DNA of 64,000 nucleotides, taken from assembly GCA_037951105.1 (NCBI GenBank), contig JBAMJV010001865.1:124001-188000 (forward strand). Direction: 5' to 3'. Source of the stretch: Echinarachnius parma. Its lineage: Eukaryota > Echinodermata > Echinoidea > Clypeasteroida > Echinarachniidae. Below are positions 22,575 to 57,835 of this stretch, piece by piece (within the stretch, counting starts at the first letter, position 1; every line of letters begins with the position of its first letter). The translations under genes and the position numbers were made by a program. The notes under the pieces are model-generated. The model was not told where the DNA came from. It saw only the letters and a program-made list of their open reading frames with translations, and did no database searches.

Positions 22575-22898
22575 TGGATGGATGGATGGATGGATGGATG
22601 GATGGATGGATGGATGGATGGATGGATGGATGGATGGATGGATGGATGGATGGATGGATGGATGGATGGATGGATGGATGGATGGATGGATGGATGGATG
22701 GATGGATGGATGGATGGATGGATGGATGGATGGATGGATGGATGGATGGATGGATGGATGGATGGATGGATGGATGGATGGATGGATGGATGGATGGATG
22801 GATGGATGGATGGATGGATGGATGGATGGATGGATGGATGGATGGATGGATGGATGGATGGATGGATGGATGGATGGATGGATGGATGGATGGATGGA
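22575..22898. repeat. Perfect (TGGA)81 tetranucleotide microsatellite
   Basis: 324 bp without a single interruption, exactly 81 units. It creates meaningless repetitive frames (WMDG on +, SIHP on -). Lack of interruptions implies recent expansion or ongoing slippage. Confidence 0.98.
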
Positions 22899-39852: not shown

Positions 39853-40640
39853 CAGCCGAACATGAACATTGTGCAATGGATTGAGCGGAATATCTTGCAA
39901 GTTGTGAATTTAAACGACGGTTCTTATTCATTAGCATAGTTCACTGTTCTGTAAGTAGTGTTTTTCATTTGTTTTTTAAAATAAATTTAGTTGGTGCATT
40001 GCTAATATAATTGATCATTGGGCAATGGATTGAATGGAATATCTTACAAGTCGCAACTTTGGTTAACGGTTCTTATTCATAATCACAGTGCACTGTTCTG
40101 TAAGTAGTGTTTTGAATTTCGTCTAGCCAGTGCATTGCTAATATAAATTGATCAGTAGCTGAACATGAACATTGGGCAATGGATTGAGCGGAATATCTCG
40201 CAAGTTGGGACTTAAAATAACGGTTCTTACATGTACTCATAATCGCAGTGCACTGTTCTGTAAGTAGTGTTTTGATTTTTTAATAGTCGGTGCATTGCTA
40301 ATATGAATTGATCAGTAGCCGAACATGAACATTGGGCAATGGATTGAGCGGAATATCTTGAAAGTTGGGACTTTAAATAATGGTTCTTATTCTTTAGCAT
40401 AGTTCACTGTTCTGTAAGTAGTGTTTTTTATTTGTTTTTAAAAATAAATTTAGTCGGTGCATTGCTAATGTAAATTGATCAGTAGCCGAACATGAACATT
40501 GGGCAATGGATTGAGTGGAATATCTTGCAAGTTGCGACTTTGAATAATGGTTCTTATTCATAATCACAGTGCACTGTTTTGTAAGTAGTGTGTTGTTTTT
40601 GTAATGGTCAGTCCATTGCTAATATAAATTGATCAGGTGG
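39853..40640. repeat. Tandem repeat, five copies of 150-167 bp
   Basis: The anchor GCAATGGATTGA.(C/T)GGAATATCTTGCAA-like sequence falls at 39872, 40022, 40176, 40336 and 40503. Each unit also holds CGGTTCTTATTCAT.A.CA.AGT.CACTGTTCTGTAAGTAGTGT and GGTGCATTGCTAATATAA. Unit length changes mainly with a T/A-rich linker. Confidence 0.9.
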
Positions 40641-52605: not shown

Positions 52606-52789
52606 TTAAGTTAACTGAAGTTGGAGAAATATTCATCTTAAATAAATTCATAATATCTATAAACATGCCTATATATGATTATGATTTTACTTTCGACATT
52701 TATTCGTCACAAATAATGTGATGGGGTAACAAAATCTGTAACCATTTGGAGAAGTTTTTATTCTTTAACATATATCTCCCGAGACATAA

Positions 52790-55700
52790 GGGCAATTCCG
52801 TATGAGAGAAGGCAAAAACACCACATCTCAAAGTTGAGCAATCTTCCCTAAATCAAACTGTTATCGATAGAGGAAAACTTGAATTTTAGGAAACTGAAAA
52901 CCATTTGTGTATAGCTCTATTGGTTTTGCAAATATTTCTGCTTGAATTGAACAGAAATTTATGACCTTTTATTCATAAATCAGCTTCATTTCATGAAAAT
53001 GAAGTAAATCTTTTAATTCAATGATTGTTTATGCTCTTTTTCTCATATTTTCCATACAATGTAGCAACAATCACTAATTGTAAAGCATGGGCAGTAACTT
53101 CATTGCATTTTTTTTTGGAGAAATTTTTGAAATCTATGCATATTTGATCGTAATTCCGTTACGATAAAACGTAATAAGTTTTCCTCAATATCTTATTACT
53201 TGTTCTTTAGTCATGTCATTGTGAATTCTCTTCCTTCACCACAGTCCTAAGAACTTCCAACATAATTTTCTGAAATAATGTCACTACTTTTTCCAAAATT
53301 GGCGTAACGGTATTAGTAATTCCGTTACGTAACGGAATTACACGCACATGGTTTGTAAGGTATTGAATGATATTGCTGAAAAAAAAAAAAAATTCTTGTT
53401 CTCAATGTAGAAATACCCTTTAAATAGCATGAACTGTAGCCATGTAGACAATACGTCATTATACAAGTACTGTACAATGTTACTTTATGTGACTCATTGT
53501 ACCCACATGCTTCATATTGCATCAATGGTGATTTAACTAAATTGATACACGATAGATAATTTCTCTAATGTCTCCATGAACATAATAGAGATGATAATGT
53601 TCTATCATTAAATAAGTTTCCAGCAAGAACCACTTGACTGAAATTATGAAGATGCAGCAGATTCATGTTTGTACTTTAGAAAGGGAAAAACAAAAACAAT
53701 ACAATTTTTTGTTAAATATCCAGTGATTAGTATGACACTGGTGCTACATTTGTTTTCTCACATTAATTTACATTCATGTATTTTAAGATATAAATCATAC
53801 CTTCAACTTTCAAGGAGATTTAATATTACTAATTTTGTAATTGTACGTAGATTTGAATATCATTGATCAGTTAAAGGCTCATAACTTATCATTAATTATG
53901 TAAATTTGTATTAAACTGAAGCATATAAAATTAAACATAAATACACAATAGGCTTCAAGATATTCAAAACTAAACATAATACAGGCTAAGATACACATGT
54001 TTTATTCATTATCATAAAGTCAGAAAACATTGAGTGTTCAGTGTGCTTCTGTATGCAGATCAAAGAAGAATGATGTACAAAGTATTTGCATTTTCAAATG
54101 GGAATTCCTAAAGGTGTCTTTTTGGCAATTCCATATTTATATTTTATATGCCAACTTTTTGTTTGAGGATCATACACGTTCATATCCGATATACATCTAT
54201 ACACGTATTTCATGGAATGGATGAAAACGCATTCCAAATTGATTTAAGAGTAAATTAAGATCAATTTAGGATGAATTTTTTAAAGAATAATTTTAGAATA
54301 TAACAAGAGTTTATATAACAAATCTCGATTTTCTTGTAATTCTGTTACGCACACACATAACTTCAGGATTTGTTCTGGTCCTTTAAATGTAAGAGCTTGT
54401 GATGAACAATGCATACACATTCTTTACTAATGACTATAAGCAGAAAAGCAGAAAAATGTAACCAAGAAATTGCATTTTCATGGGTGGATTTCACAGGCGT
54501 AATTCTGTTACAGTGACATTCGTTTGTCTTAAGGTAATTTCAGAGGTTAAAATAGATCATTTCTGGAAAAAAAGATGTACCAAAATCAAGTTTGTAACTT
54601 AAATGATAAGTTTTGTATTACCAATGAAGAATTTTTTGTGGTAGCTTTTGCAGAAAATCATTACATACTTAGTGTTGAATGAAAGACCCCTTTCCGTTAT
54701 GATTGTATTTTGGTCTCTGGACGCTACAGTGTTACAGATTTGTAACAATCTTGGGTTCTGTTGTACAGTATTGGTCAAAATAAACTAACCCCCCTAACGT
54801 TTGTGTGCAGTAATCCCTATCTGATACTGTACCTCTAGTACCCCTGCCAGTTATTAAAGTTTTAAAAACTGTGAAAGTGAAAGGAATTTTAAATATGATT
54901 AAGAAAACAGAGCTAAAAATCACTTATTTGTCATTCTGTAACAGTGGAATTACCCATTCACAATGCATTTCCATTCACACAGATTTCCAATATTCAGGAA
55001 GTTTACGAGGCTTTTATAGCATTGAAAGATGAATGATTTGACCTGTTTGTGATTTGTAATTGTTTAAATGTTGCTTGATATTGATTATGTGCAGTTATTT
55101 AGCATTTCACATAATGTAGTACATTTTTTTTTCACAATTTAACCATTTTTCTTGAAGTAAAGGAAAAATTCTAAAATGTTGCTTTTTTTTCCTTCAAATA
55201 TGGTTATTATTGTCAAATTATTGATTTTTGAAAAGTATTGAAGCTAAAATGTGAATTCTTTGTTGTTCATGTACCGATTTGTCGAAAAATTGATTTCACT
55301 GCTTAAGTTGTGTAATTCCGTTACACACATTAGTGGACATAGTTCCTAGGATTTTTCTTTTATTAAATTGATGCAATCCTTTTTAATTTCTTGCCTACTA
55401 ATATGAAGCTGAAAATAAACCGAAATAAAGCTGGATTTTAGCAATATTTTTTTCAAATTTCACTCTTATTTGTATTTTGGCCATATTTTCATTTATTTTA
55501 CACATAACAAGTTCAAAAATTGCTTTACAGATATGTCAAATTATGGTTTATATTCAAGTGCTAGATAGCCTTGATGTTTGCATTAGCATGTAAGAAAAGT
55601 TGAGTGCAAAATAATTGAGTTTTCCTTGTAACTTTCAGAGATGTAATTCCGTTACAAATTTGTGTAATTCCGTTACAGTGGTCTTTTTTCAAAAAAGTGA

Positions 55701-56070
55701 ATTTGTGAACTTGTCATTGTGTTGTTTATGAACGTACTTGTTCCAAAATGAAGTTGACATTATCAAGATACATAAAAAAAATACACAAAAAATACATAAA
55801 ATCAGTTTCAAAGTGTCTTATATTTCAGAGAAACTCAACGCAAACTTGTAGCAAAAAAAAAACTCCATTCTCCGGTAATTCCGTTACGGTCACACATATT
55901 GGTCTAGTGTGCAACAACACATGGAAGATATAAAACCATTTCCCTGTCATGTTGTAGCCTGGTTACCCGTGCAACTTATATAAGTATCAAAATCTACTTA
56001 AGTCATGAGAATATTGCGCAGGGAATGAAATAATAAGCAAAAAACGTCTCTGAATGTAATTCCGTTATGG
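52790..56070. repeat. Cluster of GTAATTCCGTTAC motifs in AT-rich DNA
   Basis: Exact 13-mers at 53150, 53316, 55312, 55643, 55664 and 55875, and inverse at 53329. One-base variants at 54336, 54499 (TTCTG) and 56056 (TTAT). Looser ones at 54936 (GTAACAGTGGAATTAC), 52792 and 53304. The 53316 and 53329 copies are back to back, making a perfect 26-bp palindrome. I saw none elsewhere in the window. No gene or TIR explains them. Confidence 0.75.
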
Positions 56071-56185
56071 TGGAATTGCCCATAAGCACCCCAAATATCA
56101 TGCTCGGTCATCAGCAGATAGAGGCAGTGGTAAATCACCGGGAGCACATGCCCTCGCTGTAAATAATATCGAAACAATAACAAAC

Positions 56186-57039: not shown

Positions 57040-57835
57040 CTTTAACAGCTCTATAAGCAATATCTCCATCTCATTCACACATTAGTGCGGTGTGAATGAA
57101 GCACTGTCTGGGGGGTGTTTCACAAAGATCCTAAGTTGAACTTAACTCTAAGTTGGACTTATCTATTATGGAAAGCCATGTGTAGCCTTAGAATAAAATA
57201 TATTCAAAACTAATAATACAAGTATTTTAGACTGTCATAAATTTTACATCAAAAACATGGAATTTCCTTGATAATAGAAAATATTAATGATTTAAATCAA
57301 TATTTTATGCCTTTGAAAAAGGACATTGAAAACAATTTTCAAAGAAACTAATGGCTCTCCATACTTTTTATGTCCAACTTAGAGATACGTTCAACTTAGG
57401 ATCTTTGTGAAACACCCCCCTGGGCTTCTATTTGGTTCGAAAAAGGGGAAGAAAACTAGTCAATCCTTTTCCATTTTCAGGAAAATTAGTGATTTCTGAC
57501 CACATTATTGTCTTCATATAGTGTCTTTAATTGGGAGGCAAAACACTAACTGCACCTTTAACAGCTCTATATCTCCCTCTCATTCACACCGCACTAAGGT
57601 GTGAATGAAGCATCGCTCCCAGGGCTTCTAGTAGGTTTGGATAAAAACAATCCTTTTTCCATATTCAGTGCAAGCAGTGTTTAGTATCGGCTAAATGTGG
57701 GGTTATTAATTGGTTGCAAAACACTAACAGCACCTTTAACAGCTCTATATCTTCCTCTCATTCACACCGCACTAAGGTGTGAATGTATAGCATCGCTCCC
57801 AGGGCTTCTAGAAGGTGCGAAAAAGGGGATGATAA
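57040..57835. repeat. Tandem repeat, three copies, unit about 190 bp without insert
   Basis: ACCTTTAACAGCTCTATA, CTC.CTCATTCACAC, GTGTGAATG.AGCA and GGGCTTCTA occur near 57040, 57550 and 57735. The first copy is split by 57110-57420. Confidence 0.85.
57110..57420. mobile_element. 311-bp TIR element GGGGGGTGTTTCACAAAG
   Basis: GGGGGGTGTTTCACAAAGAT, CCTAAGTTGAAC at the left is inverted at the right. Inserted between GCACTGTCT and GGGCTTCTA of the tandem unit, where the other two copies read GCATCGCTCCCAGGGCTTCTA. Confidence 0.88.

Follow-up and report, generated by a model that had tools for sequence, protein, structure and literature searches.

DNA transposons with subterminal repeats bound by their transposase are an already known kind of mobile element. 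Tc1 elements follow a family rule of TA duplication, hAT elements duplicate 8 bp, and Sola1 and Sola2, which have a Sola DDD transposase, duplicate 4 bp. A range of 5–8 bp is also reported for hAT duplications, and duplications of AT, ANT, CWG or TNA are given for ISL2EU, Pangu and Nuwa (PHIS) (PMC4482050). Sleeping Beauty integrates at TA (PMC7827188), and the spacing of its repeats matters (PMC8151067). P elements are described as making an 8-bp duplication, with two ends that differ in the spacing of transposase sites (PMC7776569). KolobokP elements are described with 3–5-bp duplications and long terminal direct repeats of about 450 or 660 bp (PMC9587614). In Galileo, a Drosophila member of the P-element superfamily, THAP is reported to bind about 70, 561–577 and 701–718 bp from the end; the binding core of one subfamily was not found in others, with some binding to the ends of one other species (PMC3688188).

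The locus considered here lies in a 64,000-nucleotide stretch of echinoderm DNA, the window. The motif GTAATTCCGTTAC occurs in it as seven exact copies, starting at 53150, 53316, 53329 (the single inverse copy), 55312, 55643, 55664 and 55875, and as four further copies with one or two mismatches, at 53304 (inverse), 54336, 54499 and 56056. A scan of the window agrees with the counts of an earlier note (seven exact copies, one of them inverse, and several near-copies), and the perfect 26-bp palindrome that it described is present at 53316–53341. All 11 matches with at most two mismatches in the 64-kb window fall in 53150–56068; 100 shuffles gave a mean of 1.55 matches and a largest count of 4. 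Chance as the source of the cluster is ruled out by these shuffles together with the genome-wide control using the reversed pattern. A viral source was discarded, the paired motif having 0 matches in viral contigs. Neither an Rfam family at gathering score nor a tRNA was found in the window.

The cluster occupies one complete copy of a dispersed, non-autonomous DNA transposon of subfamily A, 3,292 bp long (52790–56081, plus strand), so that the span of 52790–56070 first given to it is approximately that of the element. The copy is defined by inverted repeats and a 4-bp duplication, and matches elsewhere stop at these ends. The left terminal inverted repeat is an exact 10 bp, GGGCAATTCC (52790–52799, plus strand). 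The right repeat (56072–56081, minus strand) is its reverse complement and reads GGAATTGCCC on the plus strand. The target-site duplication ATAA is read directly outside the left repeat (52786–52789) and the right one (56082–56085). An alternative 6-bp duplication, CATAAG, with a 9-bp repeat fits the window copy and was dropped, since other copies give 4 bp. The longest stop-to-stop frame of the window copy is 79 aa, and the copy is therefore classed as non-autonomous.

The sites are laid out differently at the two ends. Left site 1 (53150–53162, plus strand) is exact and begins at element base 361; the corresponding base is 360–361 in all four subfamilies. Left site 2 (53316–53328, plus strand; exact, element base 527) is abutted by the exact inverse motif (53329–53341, minus strand), with which it forms the palindrome, and has beside it a near-copy with two mismatches (53304–53316, minus strand). 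Two interior plus-strand near-copies both read GTAATTCTGTTAC. In the majority sequence built from 28 copies, the one at 54336–54348 likewise has one mismatch and that at 54499–54511 is exact; the mismatch of the latter in the window copy is for this reason probably CpG decay. Towards the right, all on the plus strand, stand an exact motif 757 bp from the end (55312–55324; 742–754 bp in one A and one B element), an exact doublet (55643–55655, the outer member, distal to the end, and 55664–55676), an exact site 194 bp from the end (55875–55887) and a terminal site 13 bp from the end with one mismatch, GTAATTCCGTTAT (56056–56068). An old internal duplication of the right end is also present: 54436–54957 aligns with 55582–56083 at 57.5% identity, with a score of 40, the highest among 200 shuffles being 31. 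A fossil internal copy of the right end (54814–54957, plus strand), 65.5% identical to the element's last 143 bp, has lost the motif (three mismatches).

Other features of the window were recorded alongside. A 61-bp stretch (54767–54827) splits the matches of most scored copies; by eye it has AGTAT…ATACT inverted ends with GTAC on both sides, and looks like a tiny insertion in the window copy. Also by eye, a further inverted-repeat element spans 57110–57421, with arms GGGGGGTGTTTCACAAAGATCCTAAGTTGAA at about 57110–57140 and their complement at about 57391–57421. TGGA is repeated in 81 perfect copies at 22575–22898, where the open frames on both strands are not genes, and a 160-bp tandem unit is present in five copies with 77% matches at 39854–40636.

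Dispersal of the element is extensive. The host assembly (1,200,326,526 bases in 14,790 contigs) contains the exact 13-mer 3397 times forward and 3403 times in reverse; the pattern read backwards occurs 10 and 9 times. This genome-wide count, 6,800 against 19, had been proposed beforehand as a check, with membership of a common transposon named as the outcome that would tell against the first reading, and to such a transposon the motif belongs. A DNA search with 52785–56086 gave 1,102 first-look candidates, 40 of which were scored. With the window itself excluded, pieces in these 40 are 93–99% identical to the window element, and the outer limits of the matches mostly lie only a few bases from the inverted repeats. 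Sequence between the motifs, at first described as looking unique, is so only inside the window, the whole stretch being repeated elsewhere. Copies are dispersed over many contigs, and the window copy carries no transposase gene.

Forty-eight loci, L009–L056, were fetched, the window copy among them. An exact 10-bp repeat pair at an element-like distance was found in 43 of the 48 (absent from L021, L033, L036, L047 and L051), and 41 of these 43 pairs, all except L018 and L023, have a perfect 4-bp target duplication; L039, L041, L048 and L052 each allowed two pairings, of which one with a duplication was taken. L049 and L052 have common flanks and are probably a single insertion on two contigs. 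The duplicated sequences vary (ATAT 8, TTAT 5, AGAT 4, others 1–2), with TTAA in 0 of 41, and the target is AT-rich and weakly palindromic, roughly R-Y-(ATAT)-R-Y. Genome-wide, right ends TTCCGTTAYNNYGGAATTGCCC number 2,184, C left ends 784, A/B left ends 838, D ends 1,648 and ends after ATAT 1,414, each against 0 for the reversed pattern; the bare 10-mer end occurs 11,910 times against 565. Were the entire 10-mer excess to consist of real ends, the genome would hold about 5,700 elements. In an alignment of 28 A copies, the 24 that came from the DNA search lie 0.5–1.3% off the majority sequence, a figure that covers the youngest wave only, as the search prefers close copies. The window copy lies 1.1% off, and four copies from the motif list 3.7–5.8%.

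Four subfamilies, A–D, have common ends and a common duplication length. Under the Repbase rule, by which members of a superfamily have the same duplication length and alike positions 1–11, one mismatch being allowed (PMC4455052), they belong to one superfamily. Subfamily A is about 3.2 kb and B 3.9–4.5 kb long, both with GTAATTCCGTTAC. Subfamily C, of 0.78 and 2.5 kb among four loci, has the motif GTCCTTCCGTTAC and carries GTCCTTCCGTTACC. Subfamily D, of 2.0 kb, was found nested within an A copy with a TGTA duplication; its motif is GTCACGGCGTTAC and its inverted repeat is 18 bp long, GGGCAATTCCAAGCAAAC. Letters common to the three motifs (A/B, C and D) are GT-N5-CGTTAC. The gapped palindrome GTAA…TTAC, noted earlier as the form of the motif, holds for A and B and is absent from C and D, so that conservation does not reside in the dyad. 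The ends of A and B are 58–62% identical, and those of C and D about 60%. A aligns with C over 42 bp only and B with C over 85 bp in two pieces; A against D and B against D give no alignment at E 0.001. Between A/B and C/D the alignment amounts to the last 42–44 bp and one non-collinear 42-bp block. Subfamily C has an old right-end duplication of its own (1485–1896 against 2088–2499, 59.8% identity), in which three site cores are exact although their flanks are 59.8% identical.

Site positions were compared in one element per subfamily (A, L012; B, L046; C, L054; D, from L057). On the left, sites start at 361, 527 and 540 (inverse) in A, at 360 and 515/531/548 (all inverse) in B, at 360 and 524 in C, and at 360, 526 and 546 (inverse, one mismatch) in D. 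Distances from the right end are 13 (one mismatch), 194, 390, 411 and 742 bp in A; 13, 191, 391, 411 and 754 bp in B; 13, 193, 390 and 404 bp in C; and 13 (two mismatches), 193 (one mismatch), 390 and 404 bp in D. Positions common to A–D are therefore 360–361 and about 526 bp on the left and 13, 191–194, 390–391 and 404–411 bp on the right, a set that is complete in all four subfamilies once mismatches are allowed (D at 193 and 13 bp). Sites outside the common positions are found at 1711 in A and at 1493, 1691 and 1872 in C, the latter three belonging to the older second copy of the C right end. With agreement counted for exact sites (plus the terminal site of A) within 7 bp, it is 6 of 9 for A–B, A–C and B–C and 4 of 4 for A–D, B–D and C–D. 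Random placement gives a mean of 0.23–0.50, and 0 of 20,000 trials were as high. The ends of A and B, and those of C and D, still align, and for this reason the informative contrast is A/B against C/D.

Constraint on the sites is also seen between copies of A. In the 28 aligned copies, which have a common ancestry so that substitution cells are not independent, non-CpG substitutions number 9 of 2,938 in ten motif sites against 1,136 of 84,356 elsewhere, and CpG substitutions 13 of 700 against 90 of 1,482. The 13-bp flanks of the sites have 68 substitutions in 5,453 cells. The low level of the motif sites was reached by 0 of 5,000 random placements. For the 24 copies found without the motif the contrast is moderate (8 of 2,518 against 612 of 72,469 non-CpG substitutions, P=0.011), with 7 of 105 motif columns varying against 412 of 3,026 others. 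It is strongest in the four copies found through the motif, a sample biased towards intact motifs (1 of 420 against 524 of 11,887 substitutions).

Since the distances to the element ends are fixed, the motif is regarded as a putative transposase grip site, and the cluster is probably an array of sites at which transposase binds a non-autonomous cut-and-paste transposon that has moved recently. The best reading is of a long-range, asymmetric array that would be recognized with differing specificity in different subfamilies. A mechanism can be proposed as follows. (i) Transposase from an autonomous relative would bind motif sites deep inside the element, laid out differently at its two ends. (ii) Transposase gathered on the array would bring the two ends together by looping, the first left site lying 360 bp in. 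(iii) Cleavage would take place at the common GGGCAATTCC ends. (iv) The unlike left and right layouts may tell the two ends apart. (v) Copies with intact sites at the right distance would keep moving, whereby sites persist while filler drifts. (vi) In each subfamily the motif would track what the mobilizing transposase recognizes. The fossil right end of A, which lacks the motif, and the extra sites at 1711 in A and 1493–1872 in C count against the array reading. The earlier suggestion of a binding-site array under selection is supported, with the array belonging to a mobile element instead of a regulatory cluster of the host at this locus.

The identity of the superfamily is a matter for tentative proposals. 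The elements may possibly represent a superfamily not described before, or a Kolobok lineage no longer bound to TTAA, in which the ends are paired through a position-locked asymmetric array and transposase specificity has changed between subfamilies (the GT-N5-CGTTAC code) with end sequence and geometry fixed. No autonomous partner with the same ends was found among those repeat pairs above 5 kb whose sequence was inspected; these pairs are nests or foreign inserts. Three were rejected as autonomous elements: on contigs C15 (L039) and C266 (L057) a C and a D element, respectively, sit within an A copy, and on C228 (L062) a D element contains about 5 kb of foreign DNA. The unrelated DNA inside the last spans L062:711–5705. 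A repeat pair 5.46 kb long lies at C21:25419–30881, and long or unpaired ends occur on C21, C32 and C61 (stretch C61:114291–118410). Matches to PF20700 (32 in the host genome) and PF21787 (68) are absent from these three contigs. PF20700 genes form tandem arrays at C174:301860–331354 (seven copies) and C9873:22115–32907 (three copies), spaced about 4.5–4.8 kb. Four DUF7869 loci fetched from 66 matches (2.2–3.5 kb each, so that ends further out would escape) contain neither TTCCGTTAC nor GGCAATTCC. DUF7869 (PF25273) genes run over two exons in several near-identical copies (C2652:7026–8294, C1438, C628, C14010), and look like another transposable element family.

The end letters GGGCAA resemble the human THAP1 site, and a THAP protein was for this reason expected and searched for. 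In the host genome 150 of 257 candidates were scored and matched. Three matches lie on C1–C75, the contigs for which exact 10-mer ends were listed, two of them on C32, at 1.25 and 1.7 kb inward from an element end. The chance of two such placements is estimated at about 0.001, given one end per about 106 kb, with both sharing one contig. For one C32 frame the sole possible bracketing pair spans 15.4 kb, and the end near the other is unpaired; as a source of transposase these frames are only a lead. Elsewhere, clusters of THAP frames lie in the same order on C942:85395–105514 and C2380:26097–48130, perhaps two haplotypes of one locus. The C32 frames speak for the suggestion that a THAP transposase of Kolobok-like type, having lost its TTAA specificity, moves the elements, as do the GG…CC termini, which match the Kolobok rule RR…YY, Kolobok transposases being described as usually having a THAP domain (PMC9587614, PMC6004289). 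This suggestion is nonetheless rather unlikely: none of the 41 duplications is TTAA, both THAP frames are on one contig with neither closely bracketed by two ends, and PF20700 and PF21787 matches are absent from that contig.

Two accounts dispense with a transposase at the motif. The sites could bind a host protein, whether activator, repressor or silencing factor, and be carried as promoter, insulator or silencing tag instead of for transposition. They are internal, several of them far from the ends, as such an account would have it, and the present data name no binding protein; it is made improbable by sites locked to the ends in four subfamilies, one only 13 bp from the right end, and by a motif that differs between subfamilies, which a single host factor does not favour. 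Simple inheritance of positions and motifs from a common ancestor, with no present binding function, is likewise improbable. Some common descent of positions is certain, given the alignable ends within A/B and within C/D, where positions may indeed be inherited to the detriment of the array reading. Against this account, A/B and C/D barely align, yet left site 1 stands at 360–361 in all four, and motif columns are less variable than their flanks between copies. The very old tandem repeat around a conserved core, put forward earlier, is right in part, since A and C do contain old right-end duplications. As a local repeat in place of a transposon it may be dismissed, for the copies are dispersed with fixed ends and target duplications, and the 150-bp surroundings of the motifs, aligned as had been advised, have no common unit, the strong matches being overlaps of neighbouring windows.

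A motif cluster that stood out in raw eukaryotic sequence is here explained as the signature of a transposon. Literature on superfamilies, subterminal repeats, Sola, Academ and echinoderm transposons does not describe the family among the matches listed; works retrieved with the motif strings, judged by title and listing, are unrelated, as are those listed for the end sequence, judged by title. As far as these searches reach, two features are new: the fixed long-range geometry across subfamilies with a changed motif, and the combination of the GGGCAATTCC end with a 4-bp non-TTAA duplication. If the binding reading is true, the four subfamilies amount to a natural experiment: the DNA code of a transposase shifts while the layout of the protein–DNA complex is kept. 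Thousands of dispersed 13-mers are also possible protein-binding sites genome-wide, open to host co-option.

The family can be compared with several known systems. The GG…CC termini conform to the Kolobok pattern, and the 4-bp duplication length is common to both; Kolobok duplicates TTAA, and the non-TTAA duplications here rule out Kolobok proper. Kolobok and KolobokP have abundant non-autonomous relatives, as is the case here. The described multimers of KolobokP resemble the host PF20700 arrays, which are known here from profile matches alone (PMC9587614). Long terminal direct repeats of the KolobokP type are absent between the two ends in self-comparisons of one element each of A–D. ISL2EU, Pangu and Nuwa, with duplications of 2–3 bp, are excluded by the 4 bp of many sequences found here, and Tc1/mariner and Sleeping Beauty by the same length, which departs from the TA rule. 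The Sleeping Beauty/Tc1 IR-DR arrangement has paired outer and inner transposase sites 165–166 bp apart in Sleeping Beauty, near the 164–171 bp of the left pair here; unlike the present elements, it has no site at 360 bp. The duplication length of Sola1 and Sola2 fits, the comparison being of length alone. Ac/Ds, Tol2 and other hAT elements have short terminal repeats and subterminal repeated motifs (PMC8151067, PMC12910297), as here; their duplication is longer than 4 bp. Membership of the P element/Galileo superfamily is ruled out by the duplication, about 8 bp there and 4 bp in 41 of 43 pairs here. Galileo inverted repeats reach 1.2 kb, in contrast to 10 bp (18 bp in D) and two unlike ends, and its P-type transposase is known, whereas the present elements are known from non-autonomous copies alone. 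Galileo is nevertheless the closest tested parallel, with binding sites both deep inside and near the end, and with internally repeated ends (PMC3688188).
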